In this document: one piece after another, positions 11,701 to 25,041 of the stretch
Layout of the letters: every line of letters begins with the position of its first letter
Position numbering within the stretch: position 1 is the first letter of the stretch
Origin: Ferroplasma acidiphilum
GTDB lineage: Archaea; Thermoplasmatota; Thermoplasmata; Thermoplasmatales; Thermoplasmataceae
Length of the DNA: 64,000 nucleotides
Reading direction: 5' to 3'
Assembly: GCF_002078355.1 (NCBI RefSeq)
Contig: NZ_CP015363.1
Coordinates: forward strand, 558,001 to 622,000
The notes under the pieces: generated by a model
Told to the model about the DNA's origin: nothing
What the model saw: the letters and a program-made list of their open reading frames with translations, nothing else
Databases searched by the model: none
Position numbers and translations under genes: made by a program

Positions 11701-12909
11701 ATGTTAATCGGGCAGAAAATTATATTTTCCTATAAAGGCGAGGAATATGCCGGAACCTATATAAGTTCCGGAAAAAATACAATAACAGTTAAACTGGGAA
11801 GTGGCTACAATATTACAGTGGATGCCAGTTCAATTGAAATTAAAAAAGAATACTCCATGGAGAAAGGGGATAAACCTGGAGCTGAAACCAAAAATTCAGG
11901 TTGTGGGGAAAATGGAGTATGTATACTTACAACAGGGGGAACAATAGCAAGCTCGGTGGATTACACTACCGGAGCCGTAAAACCTGTAAAGGACATATCA
12001 TATTTATATAATTTTGTGAATAATATTAGCCAGTTCAAACTTTACCATGAAAGCATAGACAATATACTCAGTGAGAATGTTAACGCAGAAAAATGGGTAC
12101 AGTTTGCAAGGAAGGCAAGGGACGCAATGAAAAAGAGTAACTCAGTTATAGTATTCCATGGAACAGATACCATGCAGTACTCGGCTTCCGCATTATCATT
12201 TATGTTCGAGGAGCAGACCGAGCCCATTATATTTACAGGCAGCCAGAGAAGTTCTGACAGGCCAAGCAGCGATGCATTTCTTAATATAGAGGGTTCAATA
12301 CACTTTGCATCCACGGATATGGGAGAAGTTGGAATTGCAATGCATACAGATACATCTGATGATTCTATTTCCCTTTACCGTGCAACAAGGGCCAGGAAAA
12401 TGCACACAAGCAGCCGTGATGCGTTTAAATCAATAAGCGAACCGCCATTGGGGTTATACGCAGATGGAAAAGTCAAAGAAATTAAAAATATAAGGCATAA
12501 ATCGGACAGCATAATTTTAAAAGACAGGCTTGATAAAAATATAGGGCTCATATATTTCTATCCTGGCATGGCAGAAGAGGATTTTTATAACCTATCATAC
12601 AACAAAAAGGCAGTTATTATTATGGGAACCGGCCTGGGGCACACATCTACCGGAATTATAGATGTAATAAGAAAATTATCCCGGGAAACCCATTTCTTTA
12701 TGACCTCACAGTGTATTTACGGAAATGTAAATATGAATGTTTATTCCACTGGCAGGGAACTGATAGATGCAGGAGTAATCCCGCTGCAGAATATGCTTGC
12801 AGAAACTGCCATGGTTAAAGCAATGTACCTTTCTGCCAATTATCCTGATAATTTTGTTGAACTGATGCAGAAGAACCTCCGGGGAGAATTTGAAGATACG
12901 GTGAAGTGA
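11701..12909 (+). CDS. gatD: Glu-tRNA(Gln) amidotransferase subunit D
   Basis: A 402-residue protein with an N-terminal beta-barrel extension (about 1-70) and an asparaginase-like domain. The first catalytic Thr region is ILTTGGTIASS (78-84 core) and the second is HGTDTMQYSASAL (153-157 core). GatD releases ammonia from glutamine and GatE uses it to convert Glu-tRNA(Gln) to Gln-tRNA(Gln); the pair is found only in archaea. The N-terminal extension separates it from plain L-asparaginase. Its TGA overlaps the start of gatE. A TATA-like TTTTTATATG at 11673-11682 lies about 26 bases before the ATG, so it may have its own promoter. Confidence 0.93.
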   Translation: MLIGQKIIFSYKGEEYAGTYISSGKNTITVKLGSGYNITVDASSIEIKKEYSMEKGDKPGAETKNSGCGENGVCILTTGGTIASSVDYTTGAVKPVKDISYLYNFVNNISQFKLYHESIDNILSENVNAEKWVQFARKARDAMKKSNSVIVFHGTDTMQYSASALSFMFEEQTEPIIFTGSQRSSDRPSSDAFLNIEGSIHFASTDMGEVGIAMHTDTSDDSISLYRATRARKMHTSSRDAFKSISEPPLGLYADGKVKEIKNIRHKSDSIILKDRLDKNIGLIYFYPGMAEEDFYNLSYNKKAVIIMGTGLGHTSTGIIDVIRKLSRETHFFMTSQCIYGNVNMNVYSTGRELIDAGVIPLQNMLAETAMVKAMYLSANYPDNFVELMQKNLRGEFEDTVK

Positions 12910-14768
12910 TAGAAATGAAGATAGGTCTAGAAATACATTTTCAGCTGGGTGGCAATAAATTGTTCTGTTCGTGCAGTACCGAAGGCACAGAGTTAAATGA
13001 ATCATTTACCAGAAAATTAACACCGGTTATGGGGGAGCTTGGAAAACTCGATACTGCTGTAGAATATGAAACCATACGAAACAGGAATTTCTTATACAGG
13101 GCAAGCTCAAATTCATGCCTTGTAGAAAAGGATGAAGAACCACCCCATCCTGTAAATCCGGATGCATTAAAAACTACTATTGCAATTTCAAAGGCTTTAC
13201 ACTGTAAAGTTCTGGATTACACATCATTTATGAGGAAAATAGTGGTTGATGGTTCAAACACATCAGGCTTTCAGAGAACCGGCATTGTGGGCATGGACGG
13301 CTACGTAAAAACTTCCAGGGGGAATGTTAGGATATCTACAATAACACTTGAGGAGGATGCGTGCAGAAAGCTTTCTGAAAAAGAGGGTGTTGTGGAATAT
13401 TCCCTTGACAGGCTGGGAATACCGCTTATTGAAATTTCAACAGAACCGGATATAATAGACCCGGACCACGCACTGGAAACTGCAAAGGCCATAGGGCATT
13501 ATGTCATGTCAATGCAGAATTTCAGGGGAGAAGTAGACTCCATAAGGCAGGATGTCAATTTTTCCATGGGCTTCGGAAGGGTAGAAATAAAGGGAGTTTC
13601 GAAACTATCCTTTATAAAAGATACCATAGAATATGAAATTAAAAGGCAGAGTTCGCTCGAAGCCATATCACGGATACTGGCTGAAAAGCCCCATGAAATT
13701 GGAAACTTCATTGATATCACAGGAATGTTCACGAATACGGATTCATCAATGATTAAAAAATCAATAGCTTCTGGAAAATCTGTAATGTGCGCCAGAGTAT
13801 CTGCATGCAATGGATTGATGAAACACGGAAATTATAAACTTGGAAGGGAATTTGCAGATGTTGCTAAGAATATGGGCCTGGGGGGATTAATGCACTCGGA
13901 TGAGTTTCCGGCATATGGCCTTTCAGACGAAGAGCTCCACAGTATATATTCCACTGCTGGGAAGGGCGATAATGATGCTGTAGTAGTGGTACTGGGAGAA
14001 AAATCACGTATTGAAAAGTTAAAGCCATTGCTTGATGAAAGGTTCGATAAAATACTGAAAATGCAGCTGGAGGAAACACGGTCAGCAACACCATCCGGGG
14101 AGACCCGGTATCTAAGGCCACTGGCAGGCAAGGAAAGGATGTATCCTGAGACAGACATTCCAGCTGTAAAAATAACAGAAGCAATAATGGAAAGCATAGA
14201 AAAACTGGTACCAAAATCACTCGAGGAAACCATGAATGAACTTACAAAGAAATTCAAGCTCTCACAGGTTGAAGCTGAGTCTTTAATAAATAATAATTTG
14301 CTTTCTCTATTTAAAGCACTGGCTGGCAATTTCGATAATCCACACATCTTATCCCGTATTCTGTTGCAAACCATTCCAGAATTGGAAAACAAAAAGGGCA
14401 AGAAACTTTCACAGGTGCAGATGGTTGATATATTTGGAAATCAGTATTTAGAAGCCAGGCAATTGCCGCAGTATCATAACACTGATAGCATACTGGAATT
14501 GTCCAGGAGAGAAAAATGGGATCGCAATACCTTTGAAACGGCTTTATCGCTTTACATAATAGATAATATACCTGTATCAGAACTGGAAAAACGGGAAGAA
14601 CTAAAAATGTTAAATGATAATGAGATTAAAAAAATCCTGGACGAGCTGGTAAAGGATGGTAATGTCACACAGAAAAATGTAATTCCACTGTTCAGGGGGA
14701 AAACAAAACAATCTTTTAACCCATCTGATGTTATCAAAATATTTGTAACCATGCAAAATCAAAAATAA
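12906..14768 (+). CDS. gatE: Glu-tRNA(Gln) amidotransferase subunit E
   Basis: A 620-residue protein, the normal GatE length, starting KIGLEIHFQLGGNKLFCSCS and carrying the GatB/GatE kinase core with EISTEPDIIDPDHA and GEVDSIRQDVNFS. An AspRS-like insertion domain lies in the middle (about 280-410, region SATPSGETRYLRPLAG). The C-terminal helical domain (about 470-620) binds the tRNA. The GTG at 12906 overlaps the gatD stop (GTGA); an in-frame ATG at 12915 is the alternative, which would give MKIGLEIH. It forms a complex with GatD, and the coupled genes favour equal production. Confidence 0.95.
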   Translation: MIEMKIGLEIHFQLGGNKLFCSCSTEGTELNESFTRKLTPVMGELGKLDTAVEYETIRNRNFLYRASSNSCLVEKDEEPPHPVNPDALKTTIAISKALHCKVLDYTSFMRKIVVDGSNTSGFQRTGIVGMDGYVKTSRGNVRISTITLEEDACRKLSEKEGVVEYSLDRLGIPLIEISTEPDIIDPDHALETAKAIGHYVMSMQNFRGEVDSIRQDVNFSMGFGRVEIKGVSKLSFIKDTIEYEIKRQSSLEAISRILAEKPHEIGNFIDITGMFTNTDSSMIKKSIASGKSVMCARVSACNGLMKHGNYKLGREFADVAKNMGLGGLMHSDEFPAYGLSDEELHSIYSTAGKGDNDAVVVVLGEKSRIEKLKPLLDERFDKILKMQLEETRSATPSGETRYLRPLAGKERMYPETDIPAVKITEAIMESIEKLVPKSLEETMNELTKKFKLSQVEAESLINNNLLSLFKALAGNFDNPHILSRILLQTIPELENKKGKKLSQVQMVDIFGNQYLEARQLPQYHNTDSILELSRREKWDRNTFETALSLYIIDNIPVSELEKREELKMLNDNEIKKILDELVKDGNVTQKNVIPLFRGKTKQSFNPSDVIKIFVTMQNQK

Positions 14769-14904: not shown

Positions 14905-15339
14905 ATGATATTAGGATATGCTTCCATTGTAATAACGATAATTATTCTGGTACTGGCTTTATACCTACTATTTAAAGTCCTTCCAACCATCGGTGGGAAC
15001 AGGTATAAAAAAGGGGGAATAAAATTCAACAGGAAGGAAATAGCTAGAAACATTTCCCTGGAGGATAATCCTCCGGCCGAAGATGATTCCTATCTTCAAC
15101 CATATGAAAGTGGTGAAGTTGCGGTGGAGTATGCAGAAGGGCATATTACTGTACAGTATTATGTTATAATATTCCTTTTTATCTTATTTGACATTGATAT
15201 GCTTTTATTATTTCCATGGGCTTTTGATTTCTATGCCCTCGGCATAATACCATTCATTGAAACATTGATATTCATGGCTATGCCCCTGTTTGTTGTATTT
15301 TATGCATATAAAAAAGGTTACATGAGGTGGATGAAATGA
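14905..15339 (+). CDS. nuoA: Complex I-like oxidoreductase subunit A
   Basis: A 144-residue membrane protein with three helices (about 5-25, 88-110, 112-135). Its conserved loop carries YESGE (about 66-70) and the second helix [19 protein letters not shown] has the acidic residues typical of NuoA. It is the first gene of an eleven-subunit operon and helps to join the membrane arm to the quinone-reducing module. A hydrophilic insert around [20 protein letters not shown] is longer than in bacterial NuoA. It probably has a leaderless start from the TATA box at 14871. Its stop overlaps nuoB by ATGA. Confidence 0.93.
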
Positions 15340-15800
15340 AAACAGGAGATCTTGGAGTTAAAACTACCACTCTTGAAAAGGCTCTGCAATGGGGGAGGTC
15401 AAACTCATTATGGCCTTTGACTATGGGTCTTGCCTGCTGTGCTATAGAGATGATGGCAACACAGGCAGCTGACCTGGATATGGCAAGGTTCGGAAGTGAG
15501 ATATTCAGGAACTCGCCAAGGCAATCAGACCTTATGATTGTAGCAGGTACAACTACAAAAAGAATGGCACCAAGGGTAAAAAGGATATATGAAGAAATGC
15601 CTTATCCAAAATATGTTATAGCAATGGGCGTGTGTGTTATACAGGGTGGCCCATATGTAGACGGTTATTCAGTTGTGCTCGGCGTAGATAAAGTTATTCC
15701 GGTAGATGTTTATGTTCCGGGCTGCCCTCCTTCTCCACAGGCACTTACCTACGGTTTGATTACCCTGCAGAAAAAGATTAGAAATGAGACTGATAGGTGA
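15336..15800 (+). CDS. nuoB: Complex I-like oxidoreductase subunit B
   Basis: A 154-residue Fe-S subunit holding the terminal N2 cluster. From the ATG at 15336 the ligands are Cys34 and Cys35 ([10 protein letters not shown]), Cys100 (GVCVIQGG) and Cys130 ([11 protein letters not shown]). It passes electrons to quinone at the interface with NuoD. The start is set at 15336, because GAGGTG lies six bases upstream and the ATG overlaps the nuoA stop (ATGA); an in-frame GTG at 15327 is part of that ribosome site. The length is shorter than bacterial NuoB and similar to archaeal FpoB. Confidence 0.95.
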
Positions 15801-15805
15801 AAAAA

Positions 15806-16261
15806 ATGTATAAAATCTTATCTGAGGAAACTGACAAATCTGGAATGAAGGTATTGAATATTGACAAATCTGACCTAGTTGAACTAATGGAAGATTATAA
15901 AGGCAAAGGTTACTATCTTTCATCGATCACTGGCATAGATATGAAAGACCACCTTGAAGTTGTTTACCATATACATAATTTTGACCAGAATGATTATATC
16001 TGTGTAAAGGTGGCAACAGATGATGAAAAAGTTCCATCTTTAGTTAAACTATGGAAAGCTGCTGACTGGGATGAAAGGGAACAATACGACCTTATGGGCG
16101 TGATTTTTGAAGGCCATGAAAATCTAAGGAGGATACTGTTGCCTGAGGAATGGGTTGGCCATCCGCTCAGGAAGGATTACGACCTCAAAAAAGTTCAGTA
16201 CGTTAGCATGGATAAGAGTGGAGCAGAGCACGTAAGCTTCGATGAAAAGGAGGGATGGTAG
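15806..16261 (+). CDS. nuoC: Complex I-like oxidoreductase subunit C (30 kDa)
   Basis: A 151-residue hydrophilic subunit. The family signature is ADWDEREQYDLMGVIFEGH...RRILLPEEWVGHPLRKDY in the C-terminal half. It stabilises the quinone module together with NuoD; here the two are separate genes, not fused as in E. coli. The ATG at 15806 follows AGGTGA with a five-base gap and is preferred to the GTG at 15797 that overlaps the nuoB stop. It carries no cofactor. Confidence 0.93.
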   Translation: MYKILSEETDKSGMKVLNIDKSDLVELMEDYKGKGYYLSSITGIDMKDHLEVVYHIHNFDQNDYICVKVATDDEKVPSLVKLWKAADWDEREQYDLMGVIFEGHENLRRILLPEEWVGHPLRKDYDLKKVQYVSMDKSGAEHVSFDEKEGW

Positions 16262-17364
16262 TGTCCCACTGGATAGAATTGAATGTGGGGCCTGTCCATC
16301 CATCTACACATGGCATATACAGATTCAGGGTAAAGTTAAATGAAGAAACTGTGGAAGATGTGGATATAACTATCGGGTATCTCCACAGAAATGCAGAAAA
16401 AATATGCGAATTAAGTTATTATGCAAATAATACAATATATTTTGACAGGATGGATTACATTGACGCAATGAACATGGAACTTGCCTATCTCAGGGCTGCT
16501 GAAACTCTGATGGGCATGGAAGTCCCTGAAAGGGCCCAGTGGATCAGAATGATCATGGCTGAATTGAGCCGTATTGCGGCGAGGATGGTCGGCATAGGCG
16601 CACTTGGATTAGATCTTGGAATGCTTACGCCGTTCTTCCACACATTCCATGAAAGGGAAAAAATCCAGAATATTTTTGTAGAAGCTTCAGGGGGCAGGCA
16701 GGAAGTAAACTACATGAGCATAGGCGGAGTTTACCAGGATTTTAACGATACAATTATTGAAGAAATCAAAGAATTTATTTCAGGGTTCAAGGGTAAGCTT
16801 GAAGAAATAGTAAAAATGTACCTGGACAGTGAAGTATTCTGGCAGAGGAACCAGGGAACAGGCATACTTGAACCTGAAGTCGCACTTGATTATGGTGTTA
16901 CTGGACCAATGCTAAGGGCATCCGGAATAGCATACGACGTCAGGAAAGATTCACCATATTTATTTTACGATAACGTGAATTTCGATGTTCCCGTAACAAA
17001 TACCAAGGATAATTTAGGAAGATTTCTCCTTAAGGCTGAGGAATTAAGACAGTCGATTAAAATAATTGAACAATGCCTTGCTAAACTGCCAGACGGCCCA
17101 TTTTTCAACCCGAAGGCCAAAAAATCAGCAATGCTTCTACTAAAAGGGCAGGGCGATGTTTTTACGCGGGTTGAATCAGAAAGTGGAGAATACGGCGTGT
17201 TCATACGTGGAGATGGTGGATTAAAACCATACAGGATTCACGCCAGAAGCCCATCTTTTAAGAATCTGGCAGTTGTCCCTGTAATGGCACGCGGCGGCCT
17301 TATTGCAGACCTGATCGCTACTATTGCTTCAACAGATGCTGTAGCCGGTGAGGTGGATAGATGA
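16261..17364 (+). CDS. nuoD: Complex I-like oxidoreductase subunit D (49 kDa)
   Basis: A protein of about 367 residues, homologous to NiFe-hydrogenase large subunits, that lines the quinone pocket. It begins SHWIELNVGPVHPSTHGIYRF, with the conserved HPSTHG loop, and has GYLHRNAEKI and a C-terminal RIHARSPSFKNL. The hydrogenase cysteines are absent, as expected. The start is taken as the GTG at 16261, sharing one base with the nuoC stop, because GGAGGG lies six bases before it; the ATG at 16255 abuts that site with no spacer. Confidence 0.93.
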   Translation: MSHWIELNVGPVHPSTHGIYRFRVKLNEETVEDVDITIGYLHRNAEKICELSYYANNTIYFDRMDYIDAMNMELAYLRAAETLMGMEVPERAQWIRMIMAELSRIAARMVGIGALGLDLGMLTPFFHTFHEREKIQNIFVEASGGRQEVNYMSIGGVYQDFNDTIIEEIKEFISGFKGKLEEIVKMYLDSEVFWQRNQGTGILEPEVALDYGVTGPMLRASGIAYDVRKDSPYLFYDNVNFDVPVTNTKDNLGRFLLKAEELRQSIKIIEQCLAKLPDGPFFNPKAKKSAMLLLKGQGDVFTRVESESGEYGVFIRGDGGLKPYRIHARSPSFKNLAVVPVMARGGLIADLIATIASTDAVAGEVDR

Positions 17365-18416
17365 GCTTACTATTAAGGATACATCAATGGCTTTCGTTTC
17401 TGGGCTATGATGCATCATTTGGATTAGCATACCTGATCCAGACTATAGTCGTTATAGTTTTTGTTGGTATTTCCTTTGTTGCCTTAATTTACATATTCAG
17501 AAAATACATGGCAAGAATACAGAGGAGGGTAGGCCCAAACAGGGTTGGTAAATTCGGGCTGCTGCAGTTAATCGCAGATTTATTTAAACTGCTTGGCAAG
17601 GAATCTATAATGCCTGCAAAGAGGGATGACCTTGCATATAAGCTGGCTCCAGCAATAGTAATTATTGGAACAATACTGGCTTTCATCCTGCTGCCATACG
17701 GCGACCTTGCCTATTTCGGGTCTATTGCAGTTACACATTCCAGAGTTACACTTATACTCATGTTCGGGCTGCTATCTATTTTGCCTATCGGTGAGATACT
17801 TGCAGGAATAAGCACAAAAAGCAACTATGCACTTTTAGGAACTATGAGGGGCGTGGCTAAAGATATATCATTTGAAATTCCCATGATGATAAGCGTACTG
17901 GCAATAGTTATGATAACATCAAGGTCATATGTTACCGGAACAGCCATAACCGGCGGATTAAGCCTCTCCGGAATCGTTTCAAATGAAGTTATACCATATG
18001 GTATAATTGAACCTCTGGGATTGCTGATTTTCTACATATCCATGGTAGCAAGGGCATCAATGTCCCCATTCGATATGGGAGAAAGCGACAGCGAACTAAT
18101 TTCAGGGTATACAACTGAATATTCTGGCATGAGATTCGGATTATTCTATGTTGGATTATTCGGAATGGTTTACCTTACATCATTCATTATATCAATTCTC
18201 TATCTCGGCGGTGCCAATGGCCCATATGAATCCTACGTCGGATTTTTCTACCTGTTAATAAAAACAGTTATACTGGTATTGATAGCATTCGTGGTATGGG
18301 TTACCCTTCCCAGAATAAGGATAGACAGGTTTGTCAATCTCGGGTGGAAATATCTGCTTCCACTTTCCATGGCCAATCTGGTCTATGCAGGGTTATTTGT
18401 GTTATATATTAGGTGA
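17361..18416 (+). CDS. nuoH: Complex I-like oxidoreductase subunit H
   Basis: A 351-residue membrane protein with about eight helices. It is the subunit that shapes the quinone channel with NuoB and NuoD. Conserved loops include RVGPNRVGKFGLLQLIADLFKLLGKE (about 55-80) and a helix-6 region SPFDMGESDSELISGYTTEYSGM (about 220-245), both NuoH signatures with the acidic residues linked to coupling. GAGGTGGATAG precedes the ATG, which overlaps the nuoD stop (ATGA). Confidence 0.95.
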   Translation: MSLLLRIHQWLSFLGYDASFGLAYLIQTIVVIVFVGISFVALIYIFRKYMARIQRRVGPNRVGKFGLLQLIADLFKLLGKESIMPAKRDDLAYKLAPAIVIIGTILAFILLPYGDLAYFGSIAVTHSRVTLILMFGLLSILPIGEILAGISTKSNYALLGTMRGVAKDISFEIPMMISVLAIVMITSRSYVTGTAITGGLSLSGIVSNEVIPYGIIEPLGLLIFYISMVARASMSPFDMGESDSELISGYTTEYSGMRFGLFYVGLFGMVYLTSFIISILYLGGANGPYESYVGFFYLLIKTVILVLIAFVVWVTLPRIRIDRFVNLGWKYLLPLSMANLVYAGLFVLYIR

Positions 18417-18421
18417 TAAAT

Positions 18422-18919
18422 ATGGTTGCAACAGTTAAAGAAATAAAAATGCCGAAAAAGCCGATACCGGTAGTTGGTTCCCTTAAATCCATGTTAAGCA
18501 TGGGTAAATATGTGTTCACGAAGCCAGTTACCACTCAATACCCGGAAGACAAAGGCAAAATTCCAGAAAGATTCCGTTTCCGTATATTCCTTGTACCGGA
18601 AGCATGTGTGGGATGTACATTATGTTCAAAAATATGCCCTAACCATAGCATAAAAATGGAGCACTGGGATCTTGACAGAACCGGGTTAGAAGATAACGTT
18701 GTCCAGACAGCCAGGGGAGACAGAAAAAATTTGCAGAATAAAAGGAACATATATCCTGATGTAAATTTCGGAACATGCACAGTATGCAGGCAATGTGAGG
18801 AAATATGCCCCACAGATGCCATATATCTGACACACCAGTTTGAGGATGCAAGGACAAGGAACAGCTTTACATATTCACCGGAAGAATTAACAATGCAGGA
18901 GGAGGATGTTATAAAATGA
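18422..18919 (+). CDS. nuoI: Complex I-like oxidoreductase subunit I (2x[4Fe-4S])
   Basis: A 165-residue ferredoxin-like subunit. Two CxxCxxCxxxC motifs (Cys62-65-68-72 and Cys119-122-125-129) hold clusters N6a and N6b. The ATG at 18422 follows AGGTGA by five bases and is preferred to GTG 18413. Without NuoE, NuoF and NuoG in the operon, NuoI is the outermost cluster subunit and the likely docking site for the unknown electron donor, as proposed for other archaeal eleven-subunit complexes. Confidence 0.95.
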   Translation: MVATVKEIKMPKKPIPVVGSLKSMLSMGKYVFTKPVTTQYPEDKGKIPERFRFRIFLVPEACVGCTLCSKICPNHSIKMEHWDLDRTGLEDNVVQTARGDRKNLQNKRNIYPDVNFGTCTVCRQCEEICPTDAIYLTHQFEDARTRNSFTYSPEELTMQEEDVIK

Positions 18920-19167
18920 TAGATACCATCATATTCTTCATCCTGGCTGCCATAGCTGTAATAATGGCATTAAGTGCCATAAGCACAAAGAACCTCATAC
19001 ATTCATCAATATTCCTTCTTATACTCCTGTTAATGTTTTCAATAATATTCATCTTTCTGGGTCTGAGTTTTGTCGGGAGTATAGAATTGCTGGTATATGC
19101 AGGTGCTGTAGTCATGTTAATTGTTTTCGTTTTAATGCTGACCGGAGGTAAGGACGTTGAAGAATAA
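18916..19167 (+). CDS. nuoJ1: Complex I-like subunit J, N-terminal half
   Basis: An 83-residue membrane protein with three helices, corresponding to the first half of NuoJ; the GSIELLVYAGAVVMLIVFVLML segment is the conserved third helix. The ATG overlaps the nuoI stop and follows GGAGGAGG. NuoJ belongs to the small-subunit hub beside the quinone channel. The second half is a separate gene that overlaps by 11 bases in another frame. Each half has a ribosome site, so I read this as a natural split, as known for fpoJ in Methanosarcina. Confidence 0.85.
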   Translation: MIDTIIFFILAAIAVIMALSAISTKNLIHSSIFLLILLLMFSIIFIFLGLSFVGSIELLVYAGAVVMLIVFVLMLTGGKDVEE

Positions 19168-19378
19168 GGCACAGAAAATTGCTGCAATCGTGTTTATCAT
19201 TGTAATTGGAATTAATCTGCTCACCATTAACAAAAGCTTTGCCATAAAGCCACAGGATATAACAGACATAGGCACACTCTTATTTTCTACCTACATAGTG
19301 CCATTTGAATTGCTTTCTGTCCTGCTGGTTGCATCAATAATTGGAGTAATGTATATAGTCGAGGATGATGAAAAATGA
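19157..19378 (+). CDS. nuoJ2: Complex I-like subunit J, C-terminal half
   Basis: A 73-residue protein with two hydrophobic segments (about 8-27 and 44-66) and the loop DIGTLLFSTYIVPFELLSVLLV, which matches the second half of NuoJ. The start is TTG at 19157, seven bases after GGAGGT; no other start fits. It ends with the stop overlapped by nuoK (ATGA). It must assemble with the N-terminal half to make a full NuoJ. Confidence 0.83.
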   Translation: MKNKAQKIAAIVFIIVIGINLLTINKSFAIKPQDITDIGTLLFSTYIVPFELLSVLLVASIIGVMYIVEDDEK

Positions 19379-19674
19379 ATATAATTTACATACTATTTCT
19401 TTCAATGATACTGTTTACCATAGGAATCTATGGAGTTACCACCTCGAAGGTTGGAATGAAGGTTATCATATCGCTGGAGATTGTCTTAAACGCGGCCCTT
19501 CTGGATGTTGTTGGTGTAGCCACCCTATATTATTCAACATCTGTGGTGGTATTTGCACTATTCGTAATCGCAATAGGAGTCATAGAAAGCACAGTTGGCA
19601 TAGCTATATTTACTTTAATCTCTAAAAAATACGGGAAAATCAATATTTCATTGTTGAGGGATATCAAATGGTAA
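19375..19674 (+). CDS. nuoK: Complex I-like oxidoreductase subunit K
   Basis: A 99-residue protein with three helices, the normal size of NuoK (MrpC-like). The conserved acidic positions within the membrane are at Glu35 (SLEIVLNAA) and Glu69 (GVIESTVGIAI), in the right places for proton translocation. It overlaps nuoJ2 (ATGA) and ends inside the first codons of nuoL. The segment SLEIVLNAALLDVV fits the family consensus LEIMLNAVNL. Confidence 0.92.
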   Translation: MNIIYILFLSMILFTIGIYGVTTSKVGMKVIISLEIVLNAALLDVVGVATLYYSTSVVVFALFVIAIGVIESTVGIAIFTLISKKYGKINISLLRDIKW

Positions 19675-21551
19675 GCATATACTACTTCATATTCCTTCTT
19701 CCATTATTCGGATTTCCACTTGAATATATTATAGGAAAATACAGGCTTAAATATTCTGGAATTTTCAGCAGCGTGATGGTTCTTGGCTCGCTCATACTGG
19801 TTATTCTCGCATATTTATACCTGCTGCACCATAATTTTATTTATTCACACTATACGTGGTTTTATAATATAGATGTGGGTATTTATATAAGCCATCTTAC
19901 GGTAATAATGGCAATGATGGTGGCTTTCATGTCGCTTATGATTACATTATTTGCCATGTTCTACATGAAGGACGATCCCAGGAAAAATATATACTTTTCA
20001 GAAACGTCACTTTTTATAGCGGGAATGCTTGGCCTGGTTGTTTCATCAAACCTCGTCCTCTTTTTCCTGTTCTGGGAAATAGTTGGATTATGTTCTTACC
20101 TCCTTATTGGCTTCTGGTTTTTCAAGCCCAATGCCGCCGCAGCTGCGAAGAAAGCATTTATTGTCACACGTGTCGGCGATCTTCTATTTATTATTGGCAT
20201 GGGTGTACTATTTGCAAAACTGGTAAATATAGTGCCAGCAGGAACAAGCCCCCTGAGTATACCATATCTAATTGACAATGCACAATCTATAGCATCAGCC
20301 ATAGGGCCAGATGTACTTGCACTTGCAACAATATTATTCCTTGCAGGGGCAGTTGCCAAATCAGCGCAATTTCCATTGCATGTCTGGCTGCCAGATTCTA
20401 TGGAAGGCCCAACCACCGTCTCAGCATTAATACATGCTGCTACAATGGTAACTGCTGGAGTTTATCTGGTTGCAAGGCTATTTCCACTATTCTACTATTC
20501 TGCATCCTTTTCATTATATGCAGTTGCTATAATAGGATCATTCACTGCATTCTACGCAGGAATACTGGCAATAGTTGTAAACGACATCAAAAGAGTTATT
20601 GCATATTCAACTATCAGCGAGCTTGGCTATATGATGGCTGCTATTGGATTGGGCGGCGTAATTGGATATTCCGGAGTAACATTCGGAATGTACCATCTTG
20701 TAGTCCACGCCGTATTCAAGGCATTGCTGTTCATGTCAGCGGGCGTTATACTGGTAATGTTGATGGAATTAAGGAATATAAAAGACATGGGAGGCCTGTT
20801 CAGGAAAATGCCGGTTACTGCTATATTGATGCTCATCGGTGTAGTGACACTTGCGGCTATTCCACCCACAGCAGGATACTTCTCAAGGGACCAGATAATC
20901 TCCGGTGCATATGAATACTTTGTAAATTCAGGGAACATAATACCATGGCTTTTACTGGTGTTCGGTGAAATTCTTACCGCAATATATGCATTCAGGCTGT
21001 ACTTCCTGGTGTTCGCCGGGAAACCAAGATCAAAACTGGCGGAAAAGGCGCACGATCCAAAACTAATATATTTAGTTCCATTGATGGTTTTAGCCTTCCT
21101 TTCACTGACACTTGGAATCATCCAGAAGCCATTCTATACATTCCTGGATAGTTCGGTTAAGATTTACTCCCCGCCATTTATAATAGCTGCAATACCTGTG
21201 ATATTTTCTTTTCTTGGAATAGCTATAGCATATGCAATATACCGTTACAATGTAAAAGGATATACAAATATAACTAAAAACCCGCTTTATAAAATAATTA
21301 AGAATAAATTCTATTTTGACTGGCTTTACACGGAAATTATTTCCGAGCGGATTATATTGCCAATTTCATACCTGATCGGTGTTGCAGAGAGAAAATTTAA
21401 TGACAGGATAGATTCAGCAGGGAAGGATATATCTGACATAGGCACAGACTTCAGGAAAATAGAAACAGGTGATATTCCATTCTATGTGGCTTTCCTGATA
21501 ATCGGCATGATAGTTATTTTCGCCATAATAGAACTCATAGGGGTGATCTAA
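19668..21551 (+). CDS. nuoL: Complex I-like antiporter subunit L
   Basis: A 627-residue membrane protein with about 16 hydrophobic segments, the MrpA/NuoL class of proton-pumping subunits. The core signature has LFLFWEIVGLCSYLLIGFW (about 125-143) with the key Glu, and AKSAQFPLHVWLPDSMEGPTTVSALIHAATMV (about 225-256) with the key Lys and the HxxTM loop. The long C-terminus (about 520-627) includes the region that becomes the lateral helix in NuoL. The start overlaps the nuoK stop. Confidence 0.95.
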   Translation: MVSIYYFIFLLPLFGFPLEYIIGKYRLKYSGIFSSVMVLGSLILVILAYLYLLHHNFIYSHYTWFYNIDVGIYISHLTVIMAMMVAFMSLMITLFAMFYMKDDPRKNIYFSETSLFIAGMLGLVVSSNLVLFFLFWEIVGLCSYLLIGFWFFKPNAAAAAKKAFIVTRVGDLLFIIGMGVLFAKLVNIVPAGTSPLSIPYLIDNAQSIASAIGPDVLALATILFLAGAVAKSAQFPLHVWLPDSMEGPTTVSALIHAATMVTAGVYLVARLFPLFYYSASFSLYAVAIIGSFTAFYAGILAIVVNDIKRVIAYSTISELGYMMAAIGLGGVIGYSGVTFGMYHLVVHAVFKALLFMSAGVILVMLMELRNIKDMGGLFRKMPVTAILMLIGVVTLAAIPPTAGYFSRDQIISGAYEYFVNSGNIIPWLLLVFGEILTAIYAFRLYFLVFAGKPRSKLAEKAHDPKLIYLVPLMVLAFLSLTLGIIQKPFYTFLDSSVKIYSPPFIIAAIPVIFSFLGIAIAYAIYRYNVKGYTNITKNPLYKIIKNKFYFDWLYTEIISERIILPISYLIGVAERKFNDRIDSAGKDISDIGTDFRKIETGDIPFYVAFLIIGMIVIFAIIELIGVI

Positions 21552-23048
21552 ATGATACTACTTTATTTCTTTATACTATTCTTTATACTAACCGGCTTAA
21601 GCTTCTTCGCAGGAAAGCATTCAAAATCAGTTTCACTGGTTTCACTGGGCATACTCACAGTGTTTTTCATTATATATTCAATATTCGATTTCAGGAATTA
21701 TACCGGAGGAGTAATATCATATTATAATGTGCTATTAACGAGTTTCAGCACCAGCGGAATCACTATCAATATTAATTTCTCCCTTGGATTAACCGGATTC
21801 TCTGATCTCCTTGTCATCATTGCACTGTTAATTACTATGTTCTCGATCCTAATGGGAAGCAAATCACACGGAGCTTATTTCTACGGCCTTTTCATGGCAG
21901 CAGGGTTCGGACTGGCAGGACTATTCATGGTACGCAATTTCCTGTTCTTCTATATTTTCTGGGAAGTTGTCCTGATACCGGTATTCTTCATTATAGGGAA
22001 GTATGGTACAGGAAATAAGGAGAAAAGTTCGTTGAAATTCTTCATATATACGCATATTGGTTCACTGTTTCTGCTGCTCTCTATTTTTACCCTTTCTACT
22101 TACTACTTCCTGAAAACCAGCATATTTACATTTCAGATTGGTGACCTTATGAATGTGGCTTTCATAATTGGCATTCCAACATATGCTTTCTATTTTATAC
22201 TATTCGGGTTTCTTCTGGCTTTCCTGATAAAATTGCCAACGTTCCCGCTGCATGTATGGCTTCCAGATGCATATTACGATGCACCCTATTCCGGAACTAT
22301 AATGCTTTCTGGAGGGCTTGTGGCAATGGGTGGATATGGCCTGCTGGGCATATTATACCCTATAGCCGGGCTCTTCCCAAAATATCTCGTATATTTTATA
22401 ATATTTCTGGGGCTTATAAGCATAATATACTTCGCATTTTCTGCCCTGTTCCAGCCAGACCTTAAAAGGATGGCAGCCTATGGAAGCGCTGCGGAGATGT
22501 CGTTTATAACTATTGCATTTGGAACTGCTTTGCTGTCAACTGGCTATGTGAGAACGCTTGATCTGGCTGGTGGAATGTACCAGATAATTGCACATACATT
22601 CGTTGCGGCACTTATTTTTGCCTCACTTTCACTGGTTTATAAAAGGACAGGAACATCGAGGATCTATGAGCTCGGAGGCCTGAATAGGGAACTGCCAATC
22701 CTATCATCTTTCCTGCTGGTCGGTATGCTGGCATCGCTTGGACTACCTTCTCTTGCAGGCTTTATCGGGGAATTTTCAGTTACCATATCCGCATTCCAGA
22801 GCATAGGCCTTTATACTCTGTTTATTGTACTTGGGCTTATTGTCATTGCAGCATTTCTCATATGGGCAGCACAGAGAACCATATTTGGATATTTCAACGA
22901 GAGGCTTGGGCGGCTCAGGGATGTAAATAAACAGGAGTTTCTCATACTGTTTTTCATTATGGTATGTACCATCTTCCTCGGCGTATATCCAACACTATTC
23001 TTTAAGATACTGACGGCATATGCTTCTCATCTGGGGGGATTAATATGA
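21552..23048 (+). CDS. nuoM: Complex I-like antiporter subunit M
   Basis: A 498-residue membrane protein with about 14 helices. FFYIFWEVVLIPVFFIIGKYG (about 135-155) and FLIKLPTFPLHVWLPDAYYDAP (about 222-243) are the NuoM versions of the helix-5 Glu and helix-7 Lys regions. It is a proton channel between NuoL and NuoN. The ATG directly follows the nuoL stop, with GGGGTGAT as ribosome site. The protein is slightly shorter at the N-terminus than nuoM of bacteria. Confidence 0.94.
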   Translation: MILLYFFILFFILTGLSFFAGKHSKSVSLVSLGILTVFFIIYSIFDFRNYTGGVISYYNVLLTSFSTSGITININFSLGLTGFSDLLVIIALLITMFSILMGSKSHGAYFYGLFMAAGFGLAGLFMVRNFLFFYIFWEVVLIPVFFIIGKYGTGNKEKSSLKFFIYTHIGSLFLLLSIFTLSTYYFLKTSIFTFQIGDLMNVAFIIGIPTYAFYFILFGFLLAFLIKLPTFPLHVWLPDAYYDAPYSGTIMLSGGLVAMGGYGLLGILYPIAGLFPKYLVYFIIFLGLISIIYFAFSALFQPDLKRMAAYGSAAEMSFITIAFGTALLSTGYVRTLDLAGGMYQIIAHTFVAALIFASLSLVYKRTGTSRIYELGGLNRELPILSSFLLVGMLASLGLPSLAGFIGEFSVTISAFQSIGLYTLFIVLGLIVIAAFLIWAAQRTIFGYFNERLGRLRDVNKQEFLILFFIMVCTIFLGVYPTLFFKILTAYASHLGGLI

Positions 23049-24451
23049 ATTATGAATACCTTTACGCACTAATTTTACTGGGGCTTGCGGGCTTTATAAC
23101 ACTGGCAGCTGGCATTAAAACGGATAATAAAAAAATACTCGGCGGGTTTACATTTATAATAATGATAGTTGCATTTTTTATAATACTGTTCCAGGTTAAA
23201 AATTACAGCATATCATCGCTGAACATATCATCATTCGATTCATACTGGGCTTTAATATTCCTGGTATCTATAATGGTTATAATTATACCATCAATGAACG
23301 ATATTAAGAAGAGATTTGATGTTTATTATGCTATATTGCTATTCACAGCACTATCAATGATCATAGCTGCATTCACCTACAATCTTATAATACTGTTCAT
23401 TTCATTCGAAGGAGTAAGCATTGCAACATACATCTTAACGGCATACAACAAGACAAAAAGGAATCTTGAAGCATCATTAAAATATTTCATGGTTAGCACA
23501 GTTGGGACATCTTTCAATATTATGGGTATCGCATTTTTCTATCTTTCTACAAGAACTTTCAACCTCAACGCTATTACCACAATAGATTTTAACAGGTCTC
23601 TTTTGCTTGCACTGGTTTTTATAACTATAGGATTTGGATTCAAAATTGCCATATTCCCAATGCAACAGTGGGCAATAGATACATACGATGGGGCACCCAA
23701 TTCCGTTTCTGCTTTTCTTTCCACAGGAGGCAAGTTAGTTGCATATATGATACTATTAAAATTCCTCTTCCTTGGTTTTATACCTGATTACAATTATGTG
23801 TTCTTCTTCTTCGCAATACTTGCAATACTTACAATGACATACGGCAATCTGGCAGCCCTGATGGAAAACAATCTTAAACGTATACTGGCATATTCAAGTA
23901 TAGCGCAGGCGGGGTATATGATACTGGTATTTGCCCTGATTGGATATTCATATTATCCTGCTGTGCTTGTATCAAAGGAGATATTTGTGAAGTTTGCAAT
24001 AGCATCGGCAATGTTCTACGCCTTAGCATATATATTCATGAAGGCAGGGCCATTCATAGCAATGAGCCTGTTTAAAAATGATAAGGTGATGATAGGCGAT
24101 ATTGCAGGGCTGGCAAAAAAATCCAGATATACTGCCCTATTCCTGGCAATAATGCTTCTGTCACTGGCTGGTGTACCGCTTACCGGTGGTTTTATTGCGA
24201 AATATTTCCTGTTCTTCACACTGATTATCGGAAATCTGTGGTGGCTCGCTGTAATAGCTATAATTAACAGCGCAATTTCCATATTCTATTATTTCAGGAT
24301 AATCATATATTCATACAGGAAGGAAGGGGACAATGATTTCAATATGGCCCCTGGAATCAAGTATAGTGTAATTATAATGGGGCTGGCTACACTGGGGCTG
24401 GGTGTTTCATTTGCACTGTATACATACCTTGTTGGAATAGCTATAATATGA
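23045..24451 (+). CDS. nuoN: Complex I-like antiporter subunit N
   Basis: A 468-residue membrane protein with about 14 helices. The Glu-containing helix FISFEGVSIATYILTAYNK (about 119-137) and the segment FKIAIFPMQQWAIDTYDGAPNSVSAFLSTGGK (about 199-230) match NuoN, with Lys where the family has it. It is the last recognised subunit gene. Start overlaps the nuoM stop (ATGA) after a G-rich ribosome site. Two small unknown genes follow with only 9 bases between. Confidence 0.93.
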   Translation: MNYEYLYALILLGLAGFITLAAGIKTDNKKILGGFTFIIMIVAFFIILFQVKNYSISSLNISSFDSYWALIFLVSIMVIIIPSMNDIKKRFDVYYAILLFTALSMIIAAFTYNLIILFISFEGVSIATYILTAYNKTKRNLEASLKYFMVSTVGTSFNIMGIAFFYLSTRTFNLNAITTIDFNRSLLLALVFITIGFGFKIAIFPMQQWAIDTYDGAPNSVSAFLSTGGKLVAYMILLKFLFLGFIPDYNYVFFFFAILAILTMTYGNLAALMENNLKRILAYSSIAQAGYMILVFALIGYSYYPAVLVSKEIFVKFAIASAMFYALAYIFMKAGPFIAMSLFKNDKVMIGDIAGLAKKSRYTALFLAIMLLSLAGVPLTGGFIAKYFLFFTLIIGNLWWLAVIAIINSAISIFYYFRIIIYSYRKEGDNDFNMAPGIKYSVIIMGLATLGLGVSFALYTYLVGIAII

Positions 24452-24460
24452 GGTGATAGG

Positions 24461-24799
24461 ATGAACACAGAAGATGTAATAGAAATATTTAAGACATCAC
24501 TGGTAAACGGTGATGTAAATAATGCTTATAAGATAGTGGAGAGAAACAGGAAGATATACACCAAAAGGGGGTTAAAAACCGCTGAAGAATTCATGCAGTA
24601 CCTTATCGATGCCTTAAAGGGAGACAAAACTCCAGATGATTTATATAACATTTTTTCCGATGAGAAATACAATATATTTCCGTATATACACGATTATAAG
24701 GGATATGTATTCAACCTGGTTGATACTATATTGTATTCTATAAATAGGTACAATATAAAATATCCATCCTTCGATGGGAAGAGGTGCGGTGACATATGA
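24461..24799 (+). CDS. Unknown protein at the end of the nuo operon (112 aa)
   Basis: A 112-residue soluble, helix-rich protein starting MNTEDVIEIFKTSLVNGDV, with segments YKIVERNRKIYTKRG and EEFMQYLIDALKGD. No known family or cofactor motif is seen. It begins 9 bases after nuoN with an ideal GAGGTGATAGG ribosome site, so it is surely in the operon. A role as accessory or assembly factor, or as regulator of the complex, is inferred from position only. Confidence 0.75.
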   Translation: MNTEDVIEIFKTSLVNGDVNNAYKIVERNRKIYTKRGLKTAEEFMQYLIDALKGDKTPDDLYNIFSDEKYNIFPYIHDYKGYVFNLVDTILYSINRYNIKYPSFDGKRCGDI

Positions 24800-25041
24800 A
24801 TTATCTGAATTGCTTTAACAATATAAATACTGCAGATGAAGCCGCGGAGGCCATACATTGCATCCAGAAATGCGGGGAAACGGTACTATATAATGATAAG
24901 GAAAAACGCCTGGTGTTATGGCGGGAAGCCTATGATAAAAGCCCGGAAGAACATATGATAAAGATCAGCAAATTGCTAAAAATAGATTCAAGGGAAAGCT
25001 ATGAGGCTGCAGATAAAACATATAATTTAACAATGTATTAA
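24796..25041 (+). CDS. Unknown protein, last gene of the nuo operon (81 aa)
   Basis: An 81-residue acidic soluble protein, MNYLNCFNNINTADEAAEAI..., with three cysteines (residue 6 and the pair in IHCIQKCGE). No family is recognised; the cysteine spacing does not match a known Fe-S motif. Its ATG overlaps the stop of the preceding unknown gene (ATGA), which ties it to the nuo transcript. Its stop overlaps the end of a convergent gene by 4 bases. Confidence 0.7.
   Translation: MNYLNCFNNINTADEAAEAIHCIQKCGETVLYNDKEKRLVLWREAYDKSPEEHMIKISKLLKIDSRESYEAADKTYNLTMY

Follow-up and report, generated by a model that had tools for sequence, protein, structure and literature searches.

Genes at the 3′ End of the nuo Operon

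The window analyzed here, a 64,000-nt stretch of the Ferroplasma acidiphilum genome, contains a complex I operon with the gene order nuoA-B-C-D-H-I-J1-J2-K-L-M-N (positions 14905–24451, plus strand), which was delineated from open reading frames and recurs in the same order in relatives. The encoded complex is of the 11-subunit type, with nuoJ split in two and without NuoEFG; matches to Pfam or NCBIfam models within the operon fall on NuoA, NuoI, NuoJ2, and NuoN. The lack of NuoEFG, already recognized in the initial annotation of this DNA, is in line with a search of the organism's own genome, where no NuoF-type NADH_4Fe-4S domain (PF10589) was found. That domain does occur in 28 genomes of family f1 of the order, mostly in a frame of near 500 codons that lies away from the nuo operon.

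The final recognized subunit gene is nuoN (23045–24451, plus strand; NCBIfam NF004445, above cut-off, E = 8.8e-128). Two small genes follow it on the same strand, here called p112 and p81 after the lengths of their products, and each is backed by an open reading frame, by homologues, and by a fold prediction. The p112 gene (24461–24799, plus strand; 112 residues) is preceded by the ribosome-binding site GAGGTGAT (24450–24457, plus strand), and the p81 gene (24796–25041, plus strand; 81 residues, three of them cysteines) by AGGTG (24782–24786, plus strand), which lies inside the p112 codons Arg108-Cys109. The coordinates, frames, lengths, and cysteine count of the initial annotation are exact. 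It had also described both genes as joined by ATGA coupling; this is true of p112 and p81, where start and stop codons overlap at 24796–24799 (plus strand), but nuoN and p112 are separated by 9 nt from stop to start, with the nuoN stop codon sharing bases with the ribosome-binding site instead. The 4-nt overlap of p112 and p81 is found at 57 of 78 distinct junctions (63 of 78 after correcting six mis-chosen starts), and most of the 78 carry the motif AGGTGY.

Both flanks of the operon hold further genes. A gene of the TA0956 family (PF11513; 25038–25373, minus strand) is convergent with p81, the stop codons overlapping; in several other genera it lies approximately 1.4–4 kb off, beside a peroxiredoxin-like gene, and tatA/tatC-like genes stand between it and p81 in those other genera that were looked at. 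Directly 5′ of nuoA in family f1 is a gatE-like gene, itself preceded by a gatD-like asparaginase-type gene (window positions 11701–14768; loci L091–L128), a gatE-like gene not being detected directly 5′ of nuoA in genomes of families f2 and f5. The names gatE- and gatD-like come from reading the sequence.

Two Families Restricted to Thermoplasmatales

Of 117 genomes in the order Thermoplasmatales, 94 gave p112 homologues (some of these, a small number, being weak matches within longer unrelated frames) and 92 gave p81 homologues. For unsaturated pairs, dN/dS is approximately 0.07–0.09 for p112 and 0.01–0.1 for p81, and at the codon level both genes are under strong purifying selection. They are real genes: homologues in most genomes of the order, a fixed place behind nuoN, and low dN/dS put them far beyond chance.

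The claim of the initial annotation that neither protein has a recognized family applies to the families as a whole. No Pfam or NCBIfam family was assigned to the window proteins or, convincingly, to the 71 p112 and 62 p81 homologues scanned; there were only scattered weak matches in one or two members. One member among the 71 matched Mesd (E = 0.0026) and one matched DJ-1 (E = 0.0021); both matches were judged to be due to chance, as was a kinesin light chain match (E = 0.0011) with no stretch passing. Profiles of the two families gave no convincing match to PDB sequences, and homology to a known complex I accessory subunit or assembly factor was not convincingly found in Pfam, NCBIfam, or PDB sequences, nor did a fold search return a significant match. 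A relationship between p112 and p81 themselves was rejected (hhalign probability 0.2%). When a p81 profile built from a subset of the homologues was searched against genome contigs, it recovered 35 loci, labeled Thermoplasmata, Thermoplasmatota, Thermoplasmatales, Ferroplasma, or Thermoplasma, with the exception of one “uncultured archaeon.” A literature search on Ta0957 and Ta0958 (numbering inferred) found nothing relevant. By these comparisons, p112 and p81 are two new families restricted to Thermoplasmatales.

Within the order, the distribution of both families was compared with that of NuoN, whose orthologs (E < 1e-60) are present in 92 of the 117 genomes. In 26 genera from three families, p112 and p81 occur almost exactly where the NuoN ortholog does. 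When 400 genomes of the class were searched with profiles, both proteins were confined to families f1, f2, and f5, while f3, f4, and f6 have neither this type of NuoN nor p112 or p81. The few weak p112 matches elsewhere in the class, nearly all within longer frames, were judged to be chance; a phylum sample of 313 genomes yielded no credible p81 match, only one of 46 residues in a 336-codon frame. In a NuoN search of 44 further genomes from the class, 29 encode a NuoN-like protein, and the genes behind it are other reading frames.

Gene position is equally constant. The initial annotation had proposed looking for the pair beside nuoN in other Thermoplasmatales, and had named a location mostly away from nuo genes as the outcome that would speak against its view. 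That outcome did not occur: p81 lies on the same contig and strand as nuoN in 89 genomes, and in all 89 it begins 26–464 nt downstream (median 400, which is the room that one p112 takes up). In two genomes (G111, G032) nuoN and p81 are on separate contigs, and in another (G095) p81 accompanies a mere fragment of nuoN. The single absence of p81 (G072) is apparent, as the contig stops 112 nt past the nuoN match; a supposed absence of p112 (G096) was dismissed when a profile found it; and a 583-codon open frame suggesting a nuoN-p112 fusion (G109, locus L090) arises from an assembly gap, a run of N between the genes that joins their frames. Gene linkage and co-occurrence across the lineage, as expected of accessory or assembly proteins of complex I, were both found, and an association of p112 and p81 with this complex is very likely.

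Separation of the Two Genes in a Picrophilus-Like Genus

The initial annotation described p112 and p81 as a locked pair. They do adjoin behind nuoN in most genomes, but they are separate in a Picrophilus-like genus, each with a different part of nuo. The operon of one genome of this genus (G094, locus L091) reads nuoA-B-C-D-H-I-J-J-K-N-p81 and is without nuoL, nuoM, and p112, p81 keeping its place behind nuoN. The cluster nuoL-nuoM-p112 is instead present twice, on two other contigs (L092 on C3 and L093 on C1); at L092 the nuoM stop and the p112 start share an ATGA, and at L093 a GGTGAT site comes after the stop codon of nuoM. In the second genome of the genus (G095), nuoL-nuoM-p112 is likewise apart from nuoN-p81. 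From this separation, p112 goes with the distal NuoL/NuoM pump module and p81 with the core, as far as gene arrangement indicates, the link between p112 and nuoLM coming from one genus and perhaps from one rearrangement.

The two p112 copies of G094 have only 26% identity, yet share an identical SRYNIRYP, and therefore each pump module has kept its own p112. Trees for the duplication of nuoLM-p112 differ by gene: that of nuoL groups both G094 copies, that of nuoM does not, and that of p112 is without resolution and has long branches. Two nuoLM pump modules for one core complex are unusual in themselves.

Predicted Folds, C-Terminal Tails, and Cysteines

No 19-residue Kyte-Doolittle window exceeds 1.14 in either family; by this measure neither has membrane helices, and both proteins are predicted to be soluble. 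The predicted fold of p112 is all-helical, with five helices (pLDDT 90.7), and that of p81 is a small alpha/beta domain (pLDDT 93.2). A fold search at E ≤ 0.001 returned no match for either; the best for p112 was an HPt four-helix bundle (E = 0.56, TM 0.41), and there was nothing for p81.

Conservation is concentrated at the C-termini. Residues 91–112 of p112 are its most conserved stretch, yet prediction confidence drops there (87, 67, and 54 by block), as would be expected if this tail becomes ordered on a partner. Its pattern is R-Y-N-x-x-Y-P-x-[FY]-[DN]-x-K-R-C-x-D, and all 71 sequences have R96, Y97, P102, and R108. The tail of p81 reads Y/F-N-L-T-M-Y; N77, T79, and Y81 are invariant, and the protein always stops at the same residue. 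Small soluble proteins that dock on a partner would be expected to have conserved tails of this kind.

The three cysteines of p81 had been singled out in the initial annotation, a feature that does not extend to the family: 18 of the 62 homologues contain no cysteine at all, and Cys26 of the window protein is not at a conserved cysteine position. Candidate roles as cluster ligands were rejected on these alignments, and a cluster or metal function for p81 is unlikely because its three cysteines are not conserved. Cysteine ligands conserved as in an iron-sulfur or metal electron carrier were found neither in p81 nor in p112, whose Cys109 is kept in 65 of 71 sequences, the other six having Ser, Ala, or Ile at this position. 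The Cys109 codon forms part of the p81 ribosome-binding site (AGGTGY) in most genomes. Those p112 copies of G094 and G095 that lack a following p81 carry Ala or Ile here, and some genomes with AGGAGT or AGAAGT carry Ser. The cysteine is still kept by a few genomes whose p81 begins 17–21 nt further on, so that constraints from the ribosome-binding site and from the protein may both act on it.

Candidate Roles in Complex I

On the evidence of gene order, conservation, and predicted folds, we consider p112 and p81 to be probably overlooked parts or builders of complex I. The proposal of the initial annotation that they are accessory or assembly factors is the best reading of genes whose presence tracks the NuoN ortholog so widely. 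More specifically, they are likely to be lineage-specific accessory proteins of the Thermoplasmatales complex, candidates for small peripheral subunits on its cytoplasmic face. Each would fold as a small independent domain and dock on the complex via its C-terminal tail. As part of the membrane arm, p112 would act at the distal pump module (NuoL/NuoM), stabilizing or assembling it, and p81 would act with the NuoN-side core; coupled translation would deliver both while synthesis of the last membrane subunits is under way.

Sequence alone cannot separate a subunit from an assembly factor, and the close alternative, for which we see a smaller but real chance, is that one or both proteins are dedicated assembly factors that bind NuoL, NuoM, NuoN, or biogenesis intermediates and are absent from the mature complex. 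Small size, solubility, and translation in last place fit such factors, as does faster evolution than NuoN (66–72% identity for p112 vs. 90–92% for nuoN in the same genome pairs), and a private p112 for each nuoLM copy would suit a client-specific chaperone equally well. However, strict co-retention and a near single-copy, 1:1 relation with the structural genes also fit stoichiometric subunits. A more particular form of the accessory reading, which we regard as doubtful, has p112 tune or gate the distal proton pumps as a partner specific to the NuoL/NuoM antiporter module, for instance by limiting proton back-flow in cells that live near pH 1; the Picrophilus-like genus would then have two pump modules as alternatives, each with a p112 of its own, and these could replace one another on a single complex I core.

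The initial annotation had also raised docking at the electron input, and proteins at the hydrophilic arm that bind ferredoxin or a different donor in place of NuoEFG would find a place in a genome without a NuoF-type domain. In its statements on the group, the literature describes NuoEF as missing in all Thermoplasmatales then known and the electron route as unknown (PMC5155288), and lists the complex as NuoABCDHIJKLMN (PMC3750248). That p81 remains with the core would also suit a docking role. This is nonetheless the weaker idea and an improbable one, because p112 goes with nuoLM rather than nuoBCDI, NuoL and NuoM forming the membrane-arm end that is remote from the redox sites, and because the other class members with NuoN-like proteins do without both. 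The variable p81 cysteines count against it as well, as does a proposal for Methanosaeta in which ferredoxin is the direct donor to FpoF-less complexes (as set out in PMC4153887). No flavin-, NAD-, or [4Fe-4S]-binding domain of the kind expected in a replacement for NuoE/F/G was found in p112 or p81 by Pfam and NCBIfam scans. Even less probable is a co-transcribed regulator, or another unrelated function, that stands at the operon end by accident. Operon-end genes can share regulation without belonging to a complex, and neither protein has homologues of known function; but the position is conserved in 89 of 89 comparable genomes, p112 and p81 segregate with nuoLM and nuoN, respectively, with no random scatter, and both are absent from genomes without this complex.

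Comparison With Known Complexes and Significance

Accessory proteins of this kind would have counterparts elsewhere. Supernumerary complex I subunits include A12, S4, and S6 in Paracoccus and A9 in Mycobacterium (summarized in PMC12361115). Like these, p112 and p81 are small lineage-specific proteins that would be added to a conserved core; unlike these, they belong with a complex that has no NADH module and are encoded within its operon, and profile searches of Pfam, NCBIfam, and PDB gave no similarity to them. Among archaea, the fpoO gene of Methanosarcina is also located at an operon end, behind fpoN. FpoO is an extra subunit of the Fpo complex (F420H2 dehydrogenase), described as missing from the related complex of Methanomassiliicoccales (in the part of PMC4153887 that treats these enzymes), and thus parallels the present case as an addition in one lineage. 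No FpoO-named model was among the NCBIfam matches of p112 and p81, a comparison by model name only. The Thermoplasmatales complex is otherwise of the same kind and gene order as other archaeal 11-subunit complexes without NuoEFG (PMC4153887; PMC3750248; PMC5155288), but the passages on Thermoplasmatales in these papers give only nuoABCDHIJKLMN, without the two extra genes.

If this reading is correct, the complex I of Thermoplasmatales has so far been defined incompletely, with two order-wide proteins overlooked. Both p112 and p81, as proteins to tag for purification or as targets for deletion, would offer handles for isolating the complex and for finding its electron donor, and the way p112 stays with nuoLM points to a distal pump module capable of moving as one unit together with a soluble partner of its own.
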